Shown: positions 5,187 through 40,439, counted from the first letter of the stretch. The stretch is DNA of 64,000 nucleotides from Acidimicrobiaceae bacterium (GCA_003151475.1 PLXQ01000034.1:121537-185536); one strand, 5' to 3'. Notes: a model not told the origin generated them from the letters alone. Made by a program: numbers and translations.

Positions 5187-5618
5187 TCAGGCTCTTGTGC
5201 TCTTGCCGCGGCCGATGCCGGCACGCTCGAGGACGTCGGCCTCCACCCCGGCGGCCCGCCAGGCGGTGTAGCCGATGGACTTCCGGTCCCCGTAGGACTT
5301 GGCCACCTTCAGGAACTTGGACTCGAGCTCCGCCATGTCGTCGCCGCCGTCGGCGCGCGCCAACTCGGCTTCCAGATCGGTCTTCTCCTGCAGCAGGTGC
5401 AGCCGGGTCAGCGCGTCGGCTCCCGACAGCTTGTCGTTCACCACGCCGAGCCGGCGGCTGATCGACTCGCTCGTCCGCCGCCGCCCGGGCCGGGGCTTCT
5501 GCTCCTCGATGGCTTCGAGGTAGAGCCGGACGGCCCGTCCCTCCTCGCGGCCGCGGGCGAGTGCTTCTTTGTGTTCGGCCGTCATCGGCCGCTTGGACTG
5601 CTCTTCGGGGGGTGCCAT
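5187..5618 (-). CDS. Small charged protein of unknown function
   Basis: I do not recognise a function. The predicted protein has 143 residues and starts MAPPEEQSKRPMTAEHK. The first third is rich in Lys, Arg and Glu, followed by a helical, possibly coiled-coil middle (LHLLQEKTDLEAELARADGG), and it ends with KSYGDRKSIGYTAWRAAGVEADVLERAGI. A C-terminal segment of this kind (GDRK.I.Y.AWR..GV...VL..AGI) recurs in small conserved actinobacterial proteins, from memory. A longer frame reaching 5750 is rejected because it would overlap purL and adds a Ser-Ala repeat. It is divergent from purL. Confidence 0.7.
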   Translation of the reverse strand: MAPPEEQSKRPMTAEHKEALARGREEGRAVRLYLEAIEEQKPRPGRRRTSESISRRLGVVNDKLSGADALTRLHLLQEKTDLEAELARADGGDDMAELESKFLKVAKSYGDRKSIGYTAWRAAGVEADVLERAGIGRGKSTRA

Positions 5619-5682
5619 GGGGCCATCATGCCGGTCGTCCGCCGCACCTGCAATGGAGCGGAAGCCGGTACGGTGACGACAG

Positions 5683-7995
<2,313 letters not shown>

Positions 7996-21875: not shown

Positions 21876-21909
21876 CATTTCGGTGGTCGGGACCGGCGTC
21901 GATCCGGTG
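21876..21909. repeat. Right direct repeat within tRNA-Phe (putative att site)
   Basis: This is the partner of 20076-20109. Positions 21884-21909 are the 3' end of the tRNA-Phe gene, and the remaining bases lie just downstream of it. The tRNA keeps its full sequence, as expected if the incoming element restored the gene end. Confidence 0.85.
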
Positions 21910-21956
21910 ACCTCACGCTTTTCAGGCGCGCGCTCTACCAACTGAGCTACCCGACC
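21884..21956 (-). tRNA. tRNA-Phe (GAA)
   Basis: Read on the - strand the acceptor GGTCGGG pairs with CCCGACC. The D arm is GCTC/GAGC, the anticodon arm CGCGC/GCGTG closes a CTGAAAA loop with anticodon GAA, and the T arm is ACCGG/CCGGT. The discriminator is A and CCA is not encoded. It is last of three reverse-strand tRNAs (Glu, Asp, Phe), and its 3' end is the presumed integration site of the adjacent islet. Confidence 0.95.
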
Positions 21957-21987
21957 GAAATCTCTCGACCCCGAACAGCGGGTCTTG

Positions 21988-22062
21988 CGGTCCTGACGGG
22001 ATTTGAACCCGCGACCTCCGGCTTGACAGGCCGGCGTGCACTCCAAGCTGCACCACAGGACC
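21988..22062 (-). tRNA. tRNA-Asp (GTC)
   Basis: On the - strand, acceptor GGTCCTG pairs with CAGGACC, the anticodon stem CCGGC/GCCGG closes loop CTGTCAA with anticodon GTC, and the T arm is GCGGG/CCCGT. The discriminator is G and there is no encoded CCA. It lies 31 bases upstream of tRNA-Phe, probably in one transcript. Confidence 0.95.
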
Positions 22063-22090
22063 CCGGTTAGCTTTCGCCCCCCATCGGGTG

Positions 22091-22163
22091 CACCCCCAAC
22101 GGGATTCGAACCCGTGTTACCGCCTTGAAAGGGCGGCGTCCTCGGCCGCTAGACGATGGGGGC
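22091..22163 (-). tRNA. tRNA-Glu (TTC)
   Basis: On the - strand, acceptor GCCCCCA pairs with TGGGGGT (with the G1-U72 wobble usual for this tRNA). The anticodon stem CCGCC/GGCGG closes CTTTCAA with anticodon TTC, and the T arm is ACGGG/CCCGT. The discriminator is G and CCA is not encoded. It is first of the Glu-Asp-Phe tRNA cluster. Confidence 0.95.
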
Positions 22164-33010: not shown

Positions 33011-34507
33011 ATGCTGTTCCCCGTTCCGTTTCTCCCCGTCCCGATCGGCCCTATCAGCTCGGTGGGATCGGCCGTGACCGGCGCCGCCCAGCACGTCGTG
33101 GGCGGCGTGATCGGTGCCGGGGTCGACGCCGTCTTCTCCGGCGCCGGCCAGTGGGTGGCGTCGGGTGCGGTCTGGTTGCTCGGCCAGGTGGGTCACGCCT
33201 TGTCGGCCACGACCTCCGTCAACCTGACGTCGGGATGGTTCTCGGCCCACGAGTCGGTCATGGTCGCCCTGGCCGCCGCCGTCGTGCTCCCCATGGTCCT
33301 GTGCGCGGCCTTCCAGGCCCTGTACCGACAGAGCGCGTCGATGCTGGCGCGCTCGTTTCTCGTCAACCTCCCGCTGGCACTGCTTTTCACCGGCGTGGCT
33401 GTGGAGCTGGTCCAGATGGCGTTGGCCATCACCGACACGCTGTCGTCCCAGGTCCTCGCCGGCTCCGGCGTGGACACCACGAACGTCCTCGCCCCGGTGT
33501 CGGACTTCCTGGCCGGGTCCGCCGTGATCTCCACCGGTGTACCGGCCTTCGTCGTCTTCATCGGCGGGCTCCTGGTCGCCGTCTCGTGTCTCGTCCTGTG
33601 GCTCGAACTGGTCGTGCGCGCCGCCGCTGTCTCTGTCGCCGTCCTCTTTCTCCCCCTGGCCCTGGCCGCTCTCGTCTGGCCGGCTGTCTCGCACTGGTGC
33701 CGGCGTCTGGCCGACACCCTGGCGGCGCTTATCCTCTCGAAGCTGGTCATCGCCGCCGTCCTCTCCCTGGCCGCCGGCGCGCTGGCCGGCGGTCTCGGCG
33801 TGGGTGCGAGCGGCGGCAACGGCGGCGGCTTCGCCGCTGTCATCACCGGCATCGCCCTCCTCGCCATCGCCACCTTCTCCCCGTTCACCCTCCTCAAGCT
33901 GATCCCGGCCATCGAGGCGGGAGCTACCTCTCATCTCGAGTCGACCCGCCATCGCCTGGCGGCCACGGCCCAGGCCCCTTCGAAACCAGCCAACTGGGCT
34001 CTCGAGTACGCCCGCAGTGTGGGAGCGGAAATGGCGGGCGGTTCCTCCGGTGGCGGTTCCTCCGGTGGCGGAGGTTCGGGTGGCGGAGGTTCGGGTGGCG
34101 GAGGTTCGGGTGGCGGTTCCGGTGCCGCCCGTCTCGCTCTTCAGAGTGCGGTCGGCAGTGCGCCGCCCGTTACGGCCATGGTGTCGGGAGAGGCAACAGC
34201 CGACGCCGGAGTCGGGGGTGGAGTCGGCGGTGGAGTCGGCGGTGCCGCGACCGAGCAAGACAGCGATGACCACGGCTTCGGTGCCACGACGGGTCAAGAC
34301 AACACCGGCGAGTCTGGCGTCCGTGGCATTGCCGATTTCGCCTCTTCGGACCTGGGCTTCCCGGACTCGGGCTCTGGCCCCTCCGATTCCAGTTCCGGCT
34401 CTTCGCGCTCCGGCTCCGGCGGTCCTTCGTCGTCTGGGCCGCGGTCCCCCGCGTCAACCGGCGGAGAAACGCCACCGCCCTCGGGCGGGTGGGGCAGCGG
34501 TGGCTGA
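33011..34507 (+). CDS. TrbL/VirB6-like integral membrane protein
   Basis: The 498-residue protein has a hydrophobic first half with six to seven membrane segments (for example VMVALAAAVVLPMVLCAAF and PAFVVFIGGLLVAVSCLVLW), including LPLALAALVWPAVSHWCRRL, the pattern of TrbL/VirB6 inner-membrane channel subunits. Residues from about 340 on are a low-complexity Gly/Ser/Pro/Asp tail that contains a (GGGGS)3-type stretch encoded by three exact 15-bp units (34064-34108). The last 8 bases overlap the next gene. It is probably a core membrane component of the secretion machine. Confidence 0.8.
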   Translation: MLFPVPFLPVPIGPISSVGSAVTGAAQHVVGGVIGAGVDAVFSGAGQWVASGAVWLLGQVGHALSATTSVNLTSGWFSAHESVMVALAAAVVLPMVLCAAFQALYRQSASMLARSFLVNLPLALLFTGVAVELVQMALAITDTLSSQVLAGSGVDTTNVLAPVSDFLAGSAVISTGVPAFVVFIGGLLVAVSCLVLWLELVVRAAAVSVAVLFLPLALAALVWPAVSHWCRRLADTLAALILSKLVIAAVLSLAAGALAGGLGVGASGGNGGGFAAVITGIALLAIATFSPFTLLKLIPAIEAGATSHLESTRHRLAATAQAPSKPANWALEYARSVGAEMAGGSSGGGSSGGGGSGGGGSGGGGSGGGSGAARLALQSAVGSAPPVTAMVSGEATADAGVGGGVGGGVGGAATEQDSDDHGFGATTGQDNTGESGVRGIADFASSDLGFPDSGSGPSDSSSGSSRSGSGGPSSSGPRSPASTGGETPPPSGGWGSGG

Positions 34508-36005
34508 GAACGAGACGGCGCCCCGTTACCGCTTCGGACCGCTCGAGCGTCGCGGCCTGGTGGCGGGATGGCGTGGCGGACAGATCGCGGCTGTCGCTCT
34601 GGGCCTTGTCGTGGCCGTCGGCATCCTGCGCGCCCGAGCTTCGGCGGCCGGGGTGGCCGGGGCCTTTCTCGCCGTTGCCGCCGGGGTGGTGGCGGCCACG
34701 TGGCCCGTGGCCGGCCGCACGGCAGAGGAGTGGGCACCTGATGCCGCTCGCCATGTCGACACCATCCGGCGCCAGAAAAAGGTAAGCCGGCGCCAACCCT
34801 TCGCCACTCTCCGCTTCCTTCATGTCGATCTCGGGCGGACACAGACGGTGCAGCGGCGTCGCCGAACCGAGGTGGGCCGGGAGCGGCGACCGGGGGATGA
34901 GCCCGGCGCCGGCGTGATCCACGACATCGCGGCCAACACCTTCACGGCCGTTCTCAAAGTGTCCGGTCACGGCTTCGTTCTGCTGGGCGCTTCGGACAAA
35001 GCCCGACGCGTGGGCGGATGGTCCGGTGTTCTCGCATCGCTCGCCCGCGAGGCGACGGCCGTTCACCGGGTGCAGTGGATCGAACGGAGTCTGCCCGACG
35101 ACGGCGCCGAGGTCCGTCGCCATCTGGCGGCGCGCGCCGTGCTCGATCCCGCCAGCACCCCGCATCGTTCCTATGCCGGTCTGGTCGACGGTGAAGTGGC
35201 CGCTGTGCACCGCCACGAGGTGATGCTGGCCGTGACCGTGCATGGCGGTCACGCCAGGCGCGCTGTACGCGTCGCCGGCGGTGGCCAGCACGGCGCCTGC
35301 ACCGTTCTGCTGCGCGAAACGGCGTCGTTGGCCCGCCGACTCGGCGAAGCGGGCCTCGATGTGGCCGGCATCCTCGACCCCGATGCGCTGTCGGTCGCCG
35401 TCCGAGGCGGATTCGCGGCCGACACGGAAACGCCGATCCGCCTCGAGCATGGCGACGTCGGGGCGTCGGAGTCGCTTCCCGCCGGTCCTCCCTGGCCGGG
35501 GCCGATGGGGATGCTCCCGCAATGGGGCTGCGTCCGGACCGACGCCACGTGGCACAGCACCTACTGGATCGCCGAATGGCCGCGTACCGATGTCGCCGCC
35601 GACTTCCTCAGTCCCCTCCTGCTGGCATCCGATGTCCGGCGTTCGATAGCGGTCGTGATGGAGCCGGTGGGCGCCCTGCGCGCCGCGCGCCGGATCGAAC
35701 AGGCCCGCACGGCCGATATCGCCGACGCCGAGCTTCGACGGCGCGGCGGCTTCCTGGCCACGGTCCGGCGCCGACGCGAAGAAGAAGTGCTCGTGCAGCG
35801 TGAGGGGGAACTGGCCGACGGACATGCATCGTTTCGCTTCTCGGGCTACGTCACCGTGAGCGCCACCGATGCCGAGATGCTCGAAACGGCGTGCGGCCGG
35901 ATCGAGCAGGCGTCGGGACAGGCCGGCGTCGAATTGCGTCGCTGCTACGGGGACCAGGCCATGGCCTTCACCTGCACCCTGCCCTTGGGACGCGGGCTCG
36001 CCTGA
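34500..36005 (+). CDS. SCO6880-like membrane protein of the secretion cluster
   Basis: The 501-residue protein starts VAENETAPRYRFGPLERRG, a tyrosine/arginine-rich opening typical of the SCO6880 family, followed by two membrane helices near residues 26-70 (IAAVALGLVVAVGILRA, AGAFLAVAAGVVAATWPVAG). A large soluble domain follows (for example GFVLLGASDKARRVGGWSGV). The family is usually encoded between TrbL-like and VirB4-like genes in actinobacteria and may correspond to a PrgI/VirB3 plus partner unit; the function is not established. The GTG start overlaps the previous stop by 8 bases. The expected next gene, virB4, is displaced by 3.1 kb of cargo. Confidence 0.8.
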   Translation: MAENETAPRYRFGPLERRGLVAGWRGGQIAAVALGLVVAVGILRARASAAGVAGAFLAVAAGVVAATWPVAGRTAEEWAPDAARHVDTIRRQKKVSRRQPFATLRFLHVDLGRTQTVQRRRRTEVGRERRPGDEPGAGVIHDIAANTFTAVLKVSGHGFVLLGASDKARRVGGWSGVLASLAREATAVHRVQWIERSLPDDGAEVRRHLAARAVLDPASTPHRSYAGLVDGEVAAVHRHEVMLAVTVHGGHARRAVRVAGGGQHGACTVLLRETASLARRLGEAGLDVAGILDPDALSVAVRGGFAADTETPIRLEHGDVGASESLPAGPPWPGPMGMLPQWGCVRTDATWHSTYWIAEWPRTDVAADFLSPLLLASDVRRSIAVVMEPVGALRAARRIEQARTADIADAELRRRGGFLATVRRRREEEVLVQREGELADGHASFRFSGYVTVSATDAEMLETACGRIEQASGQAGVELRRCYGDQAMAFTCTLPLGRGLA

Positions 36006-36059: not shown

Positions 36060-36455
36060 TCAGACCTCGAGAGGAGGCGCATCTGATCCGTCCCAAACCT
36101 GCCGCTCGTGAGCCGGACGGAGCCACTGCTCCGATTCGAACAAGTGGATCATGGGGGCGTTGTTCGCCGCCGAGTCGCAGGAGATGCGCCACACGCCATG
36201 GGCAAGCAGTGTCCGGGTGGCCTGGCGGAGAAGCGCCCGGCCGAGCCCCCGACCTCGGTGGCCGGGAAGAACGCCCATGTGGAAGATGGTCGCCTCGTCC
36301 CAGGCGTCGCGTCCGCAGTTGTCGTACGTCACGGGGAGAACGAAAGCGGCTGCCTCACCACGAACCCTCAGCAACGTCCACCAACCACCTTCTCGACTGA
36401 AGCCCCAGCTCGGGGCCACTTCCAGGAGGCGACGAGCGGCGTCCGAGGGACCCAA
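36060..36455 (-). CDS. GNAT acetyltransferase, probably 5'-frameshifted
   Basis: The 131-residue frame contains the acetyl-CoA-binding core of GNAT enzymes: ATIFHMGVLPGHRGRGLGRA, with the R/Q-x-x-G-x-G/A signature, then NNAPMIHLFESEQWL. The first helices of the fold are missing. A second reverse-strand frame from 36682 (MLSLLRADWWNSARTGDRST and on to DELDGASWLPAEDDEHL) runs into the same region and looks coding until about 36480. A single frameshift would fuse both into a protein of about 200 residues, so the gene may be broken, with the TTG at 36455 an artefact. It is reverse to the secretion genes and is the first cargo gene. Confidence 0.65.
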   Translation of the reverse strand: MGPSDAARRLLEVAPSWGFSREGGWWTLLRVRGEAAAFVLPVTYDNCGRDAWDEATIFHMGVLPGHRGRGLGRALLRQATRTLLAHGVWRISCDSAANNAPMIHLFESEQWLRPAHERQVWDGSDAPPLEV

Positions 36456-36740
36456 AGCGGCAACAAGGGCAACATCAGAGGCATCGGGTGACGCCGCCAG
36501 TACTCCGGCGACGACTCCGATAGATGCTCGTCATCTTCGGCGGGCAGCCAGGACGCGCCGTCCAGTTCGTCTTCATCGACGAGCACCTGGCCTGGTCCCC
36601 ATTCGAACGGGACTTTCCAGTATGTCGATCGGTCCCCGGTCCGTGCACTATTCCACCAGTCTGCTCTGAGTAGCGACAGCATGACGCTGTCGTTTTTCCG
36701 TCACCCAAGCGTCATGTGAGGACGGTGCCAGGAAATCGAC

Positions 36741-36950
36741 AAGGTGACTGGGTCACATTTCGCCTATGAGTGTCCCCGGCCACCAGGCCACCACCCCGCC
36801 ATCTCGGTGCCGTCTATCCGTTCGCGTCGGAAGCGGGGCTCGGCGGGCGTGGCGTGCTCATCGGGCGCGACCTGCACGGTGGTGCCTTAGTCCACGACCC
36901 TTCGAGCTCTACCGGGCCGGGGTGCTGACCAAGGTGAGTATCAAGTTGGG
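36741..36950 (+). pseudogene. Truncated copy A of the virB4 5' end
   Basis: This segment repeats the leader and first 55 codons of the VirB4-like gene at 39108. AAGGTGAC at 36741 is 25 bases before the ATG at 36766, as in the other copies. Relative to the intact gene it has a one-base insertion near 36798 and a one-base deletion near 36900, so the middle is out of frame, but the end again reads FELYRAGVLT. Homology stops after codon 55, and AAGGTGAGTAT follows, as in copy B. It is decayed, which suggests it is the older of the two truncated copies. The surrounding 36683-37024 holds no other gene. Confidence 0.88.
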
Positions 36951-37024
36951 GTGCCAGGGCGCTGCTGGCATGACGTGTGATGGTCGTGAGCGTTACGACC
37001 ATCAGCCCACAATCCTCGATGCCG

Positions 37025-37297
37025 CTAGACCTCGATCTCCACCTCGTAGACCGCGCTGCTGATCACAGGGGGGCCAACAGCGGGCGTCAGCGCGGTGACC
37101 GCTGATTTGGCATTGTCTTCGGAGTCGAACATGACCACGCACGTGCCGGTTCCAACGCCATCGTTCATCCACGTCCCCTTCTCGAAACCCGGCAGCGCCT
37201 TCGCCTCCGGAATGACAAAGTCGCTCAGGATCGAGTGTCGGTGTTCGATGTCCGAGTTCGGGTCGAGCTTCACTTGGATCAGGACAGCGTGTGTCAT
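37025..37297 (-). CDS. Small dimeric alpha/beta-barrel (ABM-like) protein
   Basis: The 90-residue protein has the beta-alpha-beta pattern of antibiotic-biosynthesis-monooxygenase and related ferredoxin-like barrel proteins: THAVLIQVKLDP, then DFVIPEAKALPGFEKGTWMN with the conserved LPGF turn, then TCVVMFDSEDNAKSAV. Members may be oxygenases or simple binding proteins; no cofactor site can be called. It is a reverse-strand cargo gene between copies A and B of the virB4 5' end. Confidence 0.75.
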   Translation of the reverse strand: MTHAVLIQVKLDPNSDIEHRHSILSDFVIPEAKALPGFEKGTWMNDGVGTGTCVVMFDSEDNAKSAVTALTPAVGPPVISSAVYEVEIEV

Positions 37298-37417
37298 CTC
37301 TGTTTACCTCCGAAAAGACGGATCTGCACCAACGTAGCGTCACCCACCCCACCCATGGCCAAGCCCGAACGCGTAGGTCTGATGTGCTGGTGATAGGTAC
37401 GTGGACAGGAATGCCGC

Positions 37418-37630
37418 AAGGTGACTCGTTCACGCTCGGTCCATGGGCGTTCCCGCACATCAGGCCACTACCCGGCATCTCGGCGCTGCGTATCCGTTTG
37501 CGTCCGAAGCTGGACTCGGCGGGCGTGGTGTCCTCATCGGGCGCGATCTGCTCGGCGGCGCTTTCGTCTACGACCCCTTCGAGCTCTATCGAAGCGGACT
37601 CCTGACGAAGGTGAGTATTCAGCCGGGGCG
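37418..37630 (+). pseudogene. Truncated copy B of the virB4 5' end
   Basis: AAGGTGAC at 37418 and an ATG at 37443 begin a frame whose first 55 residues (MGVPAHQATTRHLGAAYPFA and on to ELYRSGLLT) are identical to the intact VirB4-like protein at 39108. Yet 22 of the 55 codons differ, all synonymously (about 86% base identity). After codon 55 the sequence becomes AAGGTGAGTATT and no longer matches virB4. The frame then runs on only into antisense of the archease gene. It is therefore a severed 5' end, not a working ATPase. No other gene is visible in 37298-37657. Confidence 0.9.
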
Positions 37631-37657
37631 TAAGAGGCTACGACGCCTCCTGCGGGC

Positions 37658-38107
37658 TCATACCTCCAGGACGACCCGACACCGCCAGGTCCCCCCGTGT
37701 TCACCGACCTCGAGGCCGTGCCAGGACACGGCTTTGGGGACCGGCCCGATAAGGGCCACCTCGGCGACGTCGACGACTTCCAGGTCGCCGGCCATCCCAC
37801 CGTCCTCGGCCTCGGCCAGATGGACGTGCACGGGCACCTTCTCGAACACGTCGACCGTGTCGATGACCTCTTCGAGCAGTCCGACGAGGAGGTCGGGAGT
37901 GGGGGCAGACTCCAGGACCATCGGGAGCATCGTCGTCGTGGCGGTGTCACGGAGGTCGGCAAACTCGCTCACCAGGGCGCCGACAGCCTCCGCCATGCAG
38001 GTGATCCGATCCGGTCCCCACGCTTCGATGACGGGGCCCGCCGTCTGGGGCGTGAGCCGGAATCCGCGATCGCCGGGTAGATCATCTGGCTCGTGTCCCG
38101 TTTCCAT
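37658..38107 (-). CDS. Archease-family protein
   Basis: The 149-residue protein shows the archease layout. GFRLTPQTAGPVIEAWG replaces the usual EHTADVGIEAxG start, then ITCMAEAVGALVSEFADL (the helical segment after the first strand), and LLVGLLEEVIDTVDVFEKVP. Archease activates the RtcB RNA ligase in other organisms, but no rtcB lies in the window, so the partner is unknown. The ATG at 38107 overlaps the stop of the HhH-GPD gene (ATGA), so the two are co-translated cargo. Confidence 0.75.
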   Translation of the reverse strand: METGHEPDDLPGDRGFRLTPQTAGPVIEAWGPDRITCMAEAVGALVSEFADLRDTATTTMLPMVLESAPTPDLLVGLLEEVIDTVDVFEKVPVHVHLAEAEDGGMAGDLEVVDVAEVALIGPVPKAVSWHGLEVGEHGGTWRCRVVLEV

Positions 38108-38865
38108 CAGCGGACGCCCGTCCGCGCCGGAGCCGGTGCCCCTGGTGCCAGATGTGCCAAGGCGGAGCACTTCCGTCCACCGGGACAGGTTCCCAGATCG
38201 GAGCGGTGGGCCAGCGCGGTCCGTACGAGAGCGCCTTCGAGGTCGCGTAAATCGACACCGGCTGCCACCGACAGAGATCGCAGGTGGCCCAGCGGGTCAC
38301 GGGCACGTTCGCCGATGAGGCCGAGGTGGTGGGCACAGGTCACCGTCCGGGGGTCGAGTGCGGGCGTCGCCAGGGTCCACACGCCGCGTAGCTCGCGCAG
38401 GAAGATGCCGACGGTGACCGGCCCCCAGCCGGGTAGCTCGTCGAGTGCCTCCTCGAGCTCGGCCGGTGTGCGCGCGTTGTCGGGGATGGCGCACACACGC
38501 CCGCCGTAGTGCTCGCCGAGCACGTCGCACAGCGCGTGCAGCCGGGTGGCCGTCTTGTAGTCGTATCGTGCGTACCCGCCACGGTCGAGCAGGGCCACGA
38601 GGTAGTCCCATCCAAACGCCCTGGCGGTGGCCACCGTCACCCCCGCCTCGTCGAGCACGTGAAAGGTGCGCTCGGCGATGGCGGTGGGAATCCGGGCCCC
38701 GAACAATGTTGCCGCCATGAACCACCGGTCGACTTCGGCTTCACCGGCCTCGACGTCGACGCCCAAGGCCGTCGAGAATCGGCCGCCACCCGCCACGAGG
38801 CGCCGCACCATGTCGGTGCGGGCGCGCCGGGCGGCGAGAACAGGGGCCGTGGCGATCGTGTCCAC
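38107..38865 (-). CDS. HhH-GPD superfamily DNA glycosylase-like protein
   Basis: The 252-residue protein resembles endonuclease III-type base-excision enzymes. RYDYKTATRLHALCDVLGEH leads to a helix-hairpin-helix, LDELPGWGPVTVGIFLRELRG, near residues 156-177. The catalytic region reads LDPRTVTCAHHLGL, and the Cys pair of LGTCPGGRKCSA near the C-terminus is not the full four-Cys iron-sulfur loop. The GTG at 38865 is preceded by GAGG; longer frames upstream are low-complexity. It is a reverse-strand cargo gene coupled to the archease. Substrate base unknown. Confidence 0.78.
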   Translation of the reverse strand: MDTIATAPVLAARRARTDMVRRLVAGGGRFSTALGVDVEAGEAEVDRWFMAATLFGARIPTAIAERTFHVLDEAGVTVATARAFGWDYLVALLDRGGYARYDYKTATRLHALCDVLGEHYGGRVCAIPDNARTPAELEEALDELPGWGPVTVGIFLRELRGVWTLATPALDPRTVTCAHHLGLIGERARDPLGHLRSLSVAAGVDLRDLEGALVRTALAHRSDLGTCPGGRKCSALAHLAPGAPAPARTGVR

Positions 38866-39082
38866 TCCCTCACCATCGCCCCGGCCGGCCCTGCACCGCA
38901 AGAGCCGAAGGTCACCAATTCGACAGGCCCGCAGCCTTCCGTCGAACGCCGCCCGCGGCGCGGCGCCTGAAGAGCCCACGTTGGCGTCCCTCCGTCATTA
39001 GGGACCGCCCGGCCATTGAGTGCGATGGTTGGTCAACCCATCGGCCGTCGGAGCGTGGGAGGACCGTCGCAAGGAGCCCCGC

Positions 39083-39272
39083 AAGGTGACCGGACCATCT
39101 TCCGTTCATGGGCGTCCCCGCACACCAGGCCACCACCCGGCATCTCGGTGCCGCCTACCCCTTCGCGTCCGAAGCCGGGCTCGGTGGGCGCGGCGTCCTC
39201 ATCGGACGTGACCTGCTCGGTGGCGCCTTCGTCTACGACCCCTTCGAGTTGTATCGAAGTGGGCTCCTGACG
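39083..39272 (+). repeat. Intact copy C of the virB4 leader and 5' end
   Basis: This is the third copy of the repeated module and the only one joined to the full gene. AAGGTGAC at 39083 lies 25 bases before the ATG at 39108. Homology with copies A and B runs from about 35 bases upstream of AAGGTGAC to codon 55 (39272), where copies A and B switch to AAGGTGAGTAT and this copy continues AATCCCAACATGG. Confidence 0.92.
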
Positions 39273-40439
39273 AATCCCAACATGGTCGTCTTCGGCCAGA
39301 TCGGTCGGGGCAAGAGCGCCTTTGTGAAGACGTACCTGTGGCGTCAGGCGGTATTCGGCCGCCGGTCTTGGGTGGTGGATCCGAAAGGGGAGTACACGGC
39401 GCTCGCCCAGGCCTGGGGAGTCGAACCCGTGGCCCTGCGGCCCGGGGGTCATGTGCGGCTAAATCCTCTGGACGCACCACCGGCCCGAGCGGGTGCCGAC
39501 GACGACGGGACCCGTCGCAGAGCCGAGCTGTTGGCATCGCTGGCCGCCGGCAGCCTCGGCCGATCGTTGGCCCCGACCGAACGGACCGCCGTCGAGTTGG
39601 CCGTGGCCGACGTGTCCGGTCCCGACGGCAGGGCGGCCGCGGGCGGCGCCGCGCCGGCGCCGACCTTGCCCCAGGTTGTCGACGCCCTTCTCATGCCGAA
39701 AGCGTCCTCGGCGGCCGCCATACGCACCACGGTGGACGCGCTGGCGGCCGACGGCCGTCATGTGGCGCTCGAACTGCGTCGCCTCGTGGCCGGAGACCTC
39801 CAGGGCATGTTCGACGCCGCCACTTCGCCGGGCATCAATTTGAGCGGTCCCCTCGTGGTCCTCGATCTCTCCGCCGTCTACCACTCGGCCGCTCTCGGGG
39901 TGATCATGACGTGCGCCGCCGCCTGGCTGCAGGCGGCCGTCGCCGGGCTCGAACTGACAGCCGGTGTCGTGGTGGTCGTCGACGAGGCCTGGGCCATTCT
40001 GGCCAACGTCGCCGTGGCCCGGTGGCTCCAGTCCAGCTGGAAGCTGTCACGGGCCTGGGGTGTGTCGAACATCGCCGTTCTCCACCGGTTGTCCGATCTC
40101 ACTTCGGCCGGGGCTTCGGGCTCCGAGCAGGTCGGCCTGGCGCAGGGGCTCCTGGCCGACTCTGAGACCCGTGTCGTCTACGCTCAGCCACCCGGTGAGG
40201 TAGAACGCGCCGGAGAGCTCCTGGGCCTGTCATCCACCGAGACCGAGCTCGTCCCCCATCTAAGGCGGGGCGTAGCGCTGTGGAAGGTCGGTGCACGGTC
40301 ATTTCTCGTCCAGCACCGGCTGTCTGACATCGAGGCGGCCTTCGTCGACACCGACGCACGCATGATGGCAACCGGCGTCCCCGGTACGGGCGTCCCCGGT
40401 ACCGGCGATACCGGGCCCGCCCTCACCGGTCCCGGCTGA
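39108..40439 (+). CDS. VirB4/TraC-like secretion ATPase
   Basis: The 443-residue ATPase has Walker A GQIGRGKS at residues 63-70, the WVVDPKGEYTALAQAWG segment conserved in conjugation ATPases, and Walker B VVVVVDEAW near residues 287-295. A C-terminal SNIAVLHRLSDL stretch acts as the arginine/sensor-like region. It should energise assembly or transport at the membrane. It is shorter than full VirB4 and fits the actinobacterial form following SCO6880-like proteins. The first 55 codons are repeated twice upstream. The C-terminus carries two copies of VPGTG encoded by a short tandem repeat. The coupling ATPase follows after 11 bases. Confidence 0.85.
   Translation: MGVPAHQATTRHLGAAYPFASEAGLGGRGVLIGRDLLGGAFVYDPFELYRSGLLTNPNMVVFGQIGRGKSAFVKTYLWRQAVFGRRSWVVDPKGEYTALAQAWGVEPVALRPGGHVRLNPLDAPPARAGADDDGTRRRAELLASLAAGSLGRSLAPTERTAVELAVADVSGPDGRAAAGGAAPAPTLPQVVDALLMPKASSAAAIRTTVDALAADGRHVALELRRLVAGDLQGMFDAATSPGINLSGPLVVLDLSAVYHSAALGVIMTCAAAWLQAAVAGLELTAGVVVVVDEAWAILANVAVARWLQSSWKLSRAWGVSNIAVLHRLSDLTSAGASGSEQVGLAQGLLADSETRVVYAQPPGEVERAGELLGLSSTETELVPHLRRGVALWKVGARSFLVQHRLSDIEAAFVDTDARMMATGVPGTGVPGTGDTGPALTGPG

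Follow-up and report, generated by a model that had tools for sequence, protein, structure and literature searches.

Recombinase-less tandem units, each bounded by pieces of the target gene and carrying varied cargo, are known from CIME accretion, for example among the relatives of ICESt1 (PMC5704250), and from the recombinase-less ssrA islands of Dehalococcoides (PMC3146451). Their targets are as a rule tRNA or tmRNA genes or other gene 3' ends, and the repeats are short; the newest unit lies beside the intact gene, and at an internal boundary the right arm of a unit meets the left end of its neighbour. Other islands enter near the 5' end of a gene, supply new 5' coding sequence and restore the reading frame, with the old 5' end remaining on the far side; examples are the dusA-specific IMEs and SXT at prfC (PMC8409611), which bear an integrase and mobility genes and for which a new promoter has been shown. 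Finally, integrase-less cargo has been described between long direct repeats of its target, the duplication being read, as far as the description in PMC1643837 goes, as arising at the insertion (Nobusato et al. 2000).

The array reported here lies in a 64-kb stretch of a draft genome of an Acidimicrobiaceae bacterium that was analysed as a whole (the window), and it repeats the 5' end of a VirB4-like gene. It resembles CIMEs and ssrA islands in its recombinase-less tandem units of varied cargo between target-gene pieces, in the position of the newest unit beside the intact gene, and in the make-up of its internal boundary. It differs from them in that the repeat is a gene's 5' end of more than 200 nt and that a cognate integrase-bearing element was not found. 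The array works like a CIME, but we do not file it as one because the relatives searched, which are poorly sampled and include no genome of the same genus, yielded no related element at this site that carries a cognate recombinase. With the dusA and prfC islands the array shares entry near the 5' end of a gene, the old 5' end left on the far side, and a new, diverged 5' end in frame (an ORF of 443 aa is restored, whose start differs from stranded copy B by a dS of 0.78 and encodes the same protein); its leader may, by analogy, be a candidate promoter. However, the units measure only 0.7 and 1.7 kb, form a stack of two and encode neither an integrase nor mobility genes. Insertion with long target duplication, to the extent that it is described in PMC1643837, likewise has integrase-less cargo between long direct target repeats, but the copies here had diverged in separate functional genes before insertion; the substitution pattern of B and C does not fit flanking copies derived from one host sequence. 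The locus is also not a standard integron or tRNA-type island, as the initial annotation had stated: integrase, attC and tRNA boundary are all absent, with no tyrosine recombinase match in the window, repeats that are coding 5' ends and not palindromic attC sites, and the nearest tRNAs at 21882-22163 and 60314. In Rhs and CDI loci an incoming module displaces its predecessor, which persists next to the gene as an orphan, and the displaced variable part is the 3' end (toxin tip); the stranded copies may be likened to such orphans, except that here the 5' end is concerned and the cargo is unrelated to the gene.

A repeat search of the window recovered the leader and first 55 codons of the VirB4-like gene in three copies in direct orientation, with their ATGs at 36766 (A), 37443 (B) and 39108 (C), exactly where the initial annotation had placed them (Table 1). 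Copy C is the start of the intact gene, which NCBIfam VirB4 models match below cut-off and whose Walker A motif comes after the break point. The copies, spaced 677 nt (A-B) and 1665 nt (B-C) apart, show pairwise DNA identities of 77-81% over 220-231 nt and differ by 14-20% in their coding part; upstream of the ATG, homology starts about 53-56 nt ahead of it. A genome-wide search for further copies, which had been proposed, covered the whole 4.55 Mb and returned A, B and C only.

Table 1. Features of the virB4 array and its surroundings (positions in the window; stranded copies end with the last base of codon 55).
Feature	Position	Strand	Evidence and remarks
SCO6880-family gene	34017..36005	+	NCBIfam NF042935, E 1.2e-79; ORF as listed, real start probably further in
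GNAT acetyltransferase gene, apparently frameshifted	36060..36682	-	Layer between SCO6880 and copy A
Leader A	36713..36765	+	Aligns with leaders B and C; absent from relatives' upstream sequences
Stranded copy A, virB4 codons 1-55	36766..36930	+	8 amino-acid changes and 2 frameshifts; decayed
Extension A	36931..36951	+	Homologous to extension B, not to virB4; left end of unit 1
Unit 1, 677 bp	36933..37609	.	Extension, 90-aa reverse gene, leader B, 5' module B
90-aa cargo protein gene	37025..37297	-	No significant family match
Leader B	37390..37442	+	Repeat search and alignment
Stranded copy B, codons 1-55	37443..37607	+	Protein identical to C; 22 synonymous codon differences; recently stranded
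Extension B	37608..37628	+	Left end of unit 2
Unit 2, 1665 bp	37610..39274	.	Extension, reverse archease and HhH-GPD-like genes, leader C, 5' module C
Archease gene	37658..38170	-	Pfam PF01951, E 7.5e-13; overlaps end of HhH-GPD-like gene
HhH-GPD-type base-excision-repair-like gene	38107..38979	-	TIGR03252, E 9.8e-5, below curated cut-off
Leader C	39055..39107	+	Repeat search and alignment
Intact VirB4-like ATPase gene	39108..40439	+	Copy C is codons 1-55 (to 39272); PDB 4ag5 (VirB4-like), E 1.2e-12
Putative shared core, intact site	39267..39274	+	CTGACGAA
Putative shared core, stranded copy B	37602-37609	+	CTGACGAA
Putative shared core, stranded copy A	36925-36932	+	CTGACCAA

The two truncated copies had been said to stop matching at the same codon; they in fact break off at the identical base after codon 55, and beyond it they have in common a 21-nt extension without counterpart in the intact gene. 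The extension starts with AAGGTGAGTAT and continues as ..AG..GGGG. Its likeness between A and B was equalled at only 8 of 200,000 random window positions, and in the genome the pattern occurs free of mismatches just at A and B. All three boundaries contain CTGACSAA (codons 54-56) together with homologous arms; this putative common core is only about 8 bp long, and no inverted repeats were detected around it. The two units agree at both ends and differ in what lies between. The leader is conserved among the three copies, and a search for a sigma-70 consensus in it found none, consensus scans being weak evidence here. No Rfam match pointed to a structured RNA at the locus. A perfect 10-bp inverted repeat (TGATGGTCGT/ACGACCATCA, 36978-37004), lying in the stretch from extension A to the stop codon of the 90-aa gene, is possibly the terminator of that gene.

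The cargo after each truncated copy lies on the reverse strand, in the orientation originally described, and looks like ordinary chromosomal genes. The names proposed for it fared unequally: archease was confirmed by Pfam, the HhH-GPD glycosylase reached only a sub-cutoff match to TIGR03252, and the 90-aa 'ABM-like' protein lacked a significant family match in both Pfam and NCBIfam searches. The units contain no integration or transfer genes, their cargo being one unnamed protein, archease and the HhH-like gene. The archease and HhH pair is also found elsewhere in a member of the same family (G150:C350; 77%/72%). In that genome the archease region was seen on two contigs with near-identical starts, one of them truncated (L155 1-700, L158 1-300), which suggests that the archease gene was duplicated or moved there too. 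The GNAT gene that had been noted upstream of copy A is real (Pfam PF00583, E 1.5e-11 for 36060-36455); its reading frame is apparently broken into two overlapping frames with a split near 36500, which appears to reflect either a broken gene or a sequence error. Since this gene has no virB4 module on its left side, its insertion may be a separate, older event. The description of the array as lacking a visible integrase was correct locally: neither the array nor the rest of the 64-kb window has a tyrosine or serine recombinase match, a strong tyrosine recombinase match coming no closer than about 97 kb on the same contig, and the genome's 18 tyrosine-recombinase and 3 resolvase domain matches all fall outside the window. 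This local absence is compatible with both trans-acting site-specific recombination and homologous recombination.

The host falls in an actinobacterial order with Acidimicrobiales as its named relatives. Relatives have in common the gene order serS, phoB, phoR, T4SS genes, SCO6880, virB4, T4CP, which indicates that the T4SS is a fixed resident chromosomal locus; an ICE, considered as an alternative, was ruled out on the same grounds, as conservation of the serS-phoB-phoR-T4SS order across relatives is not that of a visiting element. We compared 95 distinct loci with a virB4 5' end, the entries of the array's own genome included. The end of SCO6880 lies upstream of virB4 in 82 of them, at a distance of at most 60 nt in 61, of 61-200 nt in 8, and of more than 200 nt in 13, among them the genome with the array. 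The two genes adjoin in nearly all genomes of the same family in which the site is covered, and the leader of A, B and C is absent from those upstream sequences of relatives that were inspected. Both observations lead to the conclusion that the cargo-free site is the ancestral state. Cargo-free genomes thus exist as the initial annotation had anticipated, and the opposite outcome that it had named as fatal, a three-copy array fixed among relatives with no cargo-free version, is contradicted by the 61 of 82 loci with a short gap.

The same annotation had expected variable reverse-strand cargo in the SCO6880-virB4 interval of relatives, and other cargo was indeed found there in a few distant ones, whereas units bounded by the module were not. 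The insert measures 0.9 kb in L050, 1.7 kb in L061 (GNAT), 1.8 kb in L103 (AHSA1-like, ArsR-like and VTT/DedA-like genes), 3.1 kb in L100 (sulfatase, DUF1275) and 3.4 kb in L097, and none of these five loci holds a virB4 5' copy. In about 10 more relatives virB4 lies away from SCO6880 or the contig ends there, likewise with no orphan 5' copy in any. The expected variation in the number of 55-codon modules did not materialize: among the matches listed (156 virB4-bearing genomes of the 397 in the order; 75 contig loci) no other genome has an orphan virB4 5' copy, and no match stops at codon 55 except the two orphans of the array. A complete cognate element or a single-unit allele was found in none of the relatives searched. 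The SCO6880-virB4 junction is therefore a spot where genes get inserted, and so far only this genome shows the module-cargo-module pattern. A, B and C group as a single clade in a phylogeny with 83 relatives (support 0.88; B+C 0.92). This points to donors that are close relatives of the host and unsampled in the collections. No viral or phage carriers of the module were found, and its plasmid matches are full-length homologues of less than 60% identity.

Some further arrangements at these loci deserve mention. In L040, L043, L049, L053, L054, L066, L069, L074 and L104 the virB4-T4CP pair is separated from the part of the operon that holds SCO6880 and is preceded by unrelated genes. In L043, where SCO6880 does not adjoin virB4, a serine recombinase gene (5398-6024; Resolvase E 1.4e-35) is located about 2 kb upstream of virB4. 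In L050 (3150-4026) the interval from SCO6880 to virB4 holds a reverse-strand gene and, after it, a diverged extra copy of the last approximately 30-49 codons of SCO6880, in which amino-acid differences are common; it looks like an old, decayed 3'-end duplicate, a mirror image of the 5' copies in the window.

The history of the three 5' ends is recorded in their substitutions. B and C encode identical proteins of 55 residues, and 22 of their 55 codons differ, all synonymously; the Nei-Gojobori dS is 0.78 (bootstrap 95% 0.44-1.51) and the dN 0.008, the latter representing one nonsynonymous path step inside a synonymous codon pair. For A-B and A-C, dS/dN are 0.93/0.08 and 0.62/0.09. A duplicate dead since the B-C split would be expected to carry about 46 amino-acid changes, and B carries none; A has 8 amino-acid changes and two frameshifts against 45-55 changes expected. 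With a module of only 55 codons the dS intervals are wide, and the contrast between observation and expectation is large at any value within them. Because A and B have so few changes, the divergence took place inside working genes and was followed by stranding: the three 5' ends diverged as starts of working genes and were stranded later. We place the stranding of A roughly 0.07 and that of B less than about 0.025 neutral substitutions per site before present. A is the older fossil and B the recent one, so that the newest lies beside the intact gene. The inference of stranding presupposes that B is not maintained as a short gene; such maintenance is unlikely given the frameshifts of A and the lack of a stop after the module in B. 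The claim that each event supplies a new 5' end and strands the old one is upheld by this pattern, which speaks against duplication, and by cargo-free relatives being the norm. A scheme in which one old insertion with stranded A was inherited by sister lineages and followed by unequal exchange was rejected, as the decay of A would then have to match the age of the B-C split, and A is too little decayed (8 changes versus about 45).

These observations suggest that the locus is a small tandem array that appears to have grown through two or more insertions in succession, all at the same base position in virB4. The core of the initial proposal, stepwise insertion at one site, is supported, and the variable module number among relatives that went with it is not. 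We favour, at a confidence slightly short of even, site-specific accretion of recombinase-less CIME-like elements with an attachment site in the 5' end of virB4 and a recombinase that acts in trans or has been lost. The right end of a unit would consist of leader, module and CTGACSAA, its left end of the 21-nt extension, with its own reverse-strand cargo between them. Such a unit would insert after CTGACSAA (codons 54-56) in the resident virB4; the resident 5' end would be cut off and left abutting the extension, and the imported leader and working codons 1-55 would join the rest of the gene in frame. Repetition at the gene-side site would give A|ext-cargo1-B|ext-cargo2-C-gene, with the oldest fossil farthest off, and the decayed state of A beside an intact B is the order that accretion at this site predicts. 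The recombinase would act from elsewhere in the cell or would since have been lost; an excised circle would carry the junction leader-55 codons-CTGACGAA-GGTGAGTAT, and the donors would be close relatives of the host outside the sampled genomes. In favour of such accretion are the common break point of A and B and the extension common to these two only; successive insertions were independent, to judge from A and B having decayed unequally and from the deep divergence that separated all three copies before stranding. Against it count the lack of a recombinase gene in the window and of a complete cognate element or single-unit allele in the relatives searched, the short core around which no inverted repeats were detected, and a supplied 5' end that, with 165 coding nt plus leader, much exceeds a typical att repeat. 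It also counts against it that a single draft genome, which may be a metagenome bin, is the only source of the array.

The main rival, which we consider less likely, is homology-anchored insertion in which no dedicated recombinase takes part. RecA would have recombined incoming DNA of a related strain in which module|extension-cargo-leader-module was already present. In one form a circle would have entered by a Campbell-type crossover in the module; in the other a linear fragment would have been taken in by HFIR, anchored in downstream virB4 and joined by microhomology at codon 55. The junction of codon 55 with the extension would have formed once and later been copied through homologous exchange. 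No special enzyme is needed and none is in sight, the cargo consists of ordinary genes whose archease and HhH pair exists elsewhere in the family, and the direct repeats B and C would allow unit 2 to be excised and integrated as a circle. HFIR is documented, and natural transformation still occurs, if very inefficiently, with DNA that is as much as about 23% divergent; it drops steeply up to 15% and is marginal beyond (PMC6382021). However, the modules are 14-20% diverged in their coding part and more in the leader, and with only about 220 bp of homology this severely hinders exchange by RecA. Crossovers should moreover bring in the donor's decayed stranded sequence, whereas B shows no change of amino acid through its last codon. 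The version in which stranded A was inherited before the B-C split fails on the decay of A, as above.

It is more doubtful whether the units constitute a small recombinase-free cassette family of their own, in which the virB4 leader and 55 codons would serve as attachment and gene-restoring end and cargo would be stacked in order of time, integron-like without an integrase. A second array built on a protein gene's 5' end was not recognised as such in the 1.28 Mb of the same genome that was searched. That genome does contain a second repeat-cargo array, which is tRNA-anchored: on contig C72 (L205 8949-14685; about 68949-74685 on the contig) tRNA-Leu(tag) is followed by four direct repeats, each approximately 140-260 nt long and sharing about 80-83% identity, which are interspersed with unrelated genes. 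Elsewhere in it, 87%-identical direct repeats (L170 9310-9445 and 10723-10853) enclose an ORF whose product looks, on inspection by eye, like an ArdC-type antirestriction protein; an ssb-like gene lies beside it.

Three other explanations have little to recommend them. Copy B might be a functional short gene, selection keeping a 55-codon N-terminal protein that perhaps regulates VirB4 or competes with it as a partner. This agrees with its 22 synonymous and 0 amino-acid changes and with its intact ATG and AAGGTGA ribosome-binding-like leader, but it is very improbable, as the like-structured copy A is frameshifted, the frame of B has no stop at codon 55 and continues for 236 codons antisense to the archease and HhH genes, no other genome keeps such a copy among the matches listed, and the common extension and cargo are left unexplained. 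There is a very slim chance that the 5' region of virB4 was simply duplicated locally, or that a long target duplication accompanied insertion within one genome, with decay afterwards; local duplication was the other outcome that the initial annotation regarded as fatal. Direct repeats do flank the inserted genes, as in the long-target-duplication case outlined in PMC1643837, but such copies start identical and the dead one should gain changes; the substitution pattern (B 0 versus about 46, A 8 versus 45-55) contradicts it. The idea that the extension is leftover leader, as both start with AAGGTGA, was also rejected: the likeness ends after about 7 nt by eye, and tandem duplication again predicts amino-acid changes in B. 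The least credible explanation is a chimeric assembly in which versions of the locus from different strains were joined in a metagenome bin. Although the genome is a draft of 81 contigs with 3% contamination and the modules look like related-strain alleles, the array sits mid-contig (C80, 265 kb), its copies at about 80% identity are too far apart for easy k-mer bridging, and the extension common to A and B would go unexplained.

As a kind, the array is a variant of known tandem accretion. Its layout is nearer to known CIME-type and 5'-end-targeting accretion than the initial annotation implied. Unusual here are the 5' end of a T4SS ATPase gene as target in a fixed chromosomal locus, the long supplied 5' end and the small units, as well as the absence of any known full element. 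The array provides a clear, roughly dated record of repeated insertion at the same position in the 5' end of a protein gene, by which diverged working starts were imported. The contrast between synonymous and nonsynonymous changes tells stranded 5' ends from ordinary duplicates, and as a test it could bring to light accretion sites that lack a recombinase and lie outside tRNA genes. Should the units turn out to be mobile, they would count as very small cassettes on a conserved secretion locus.
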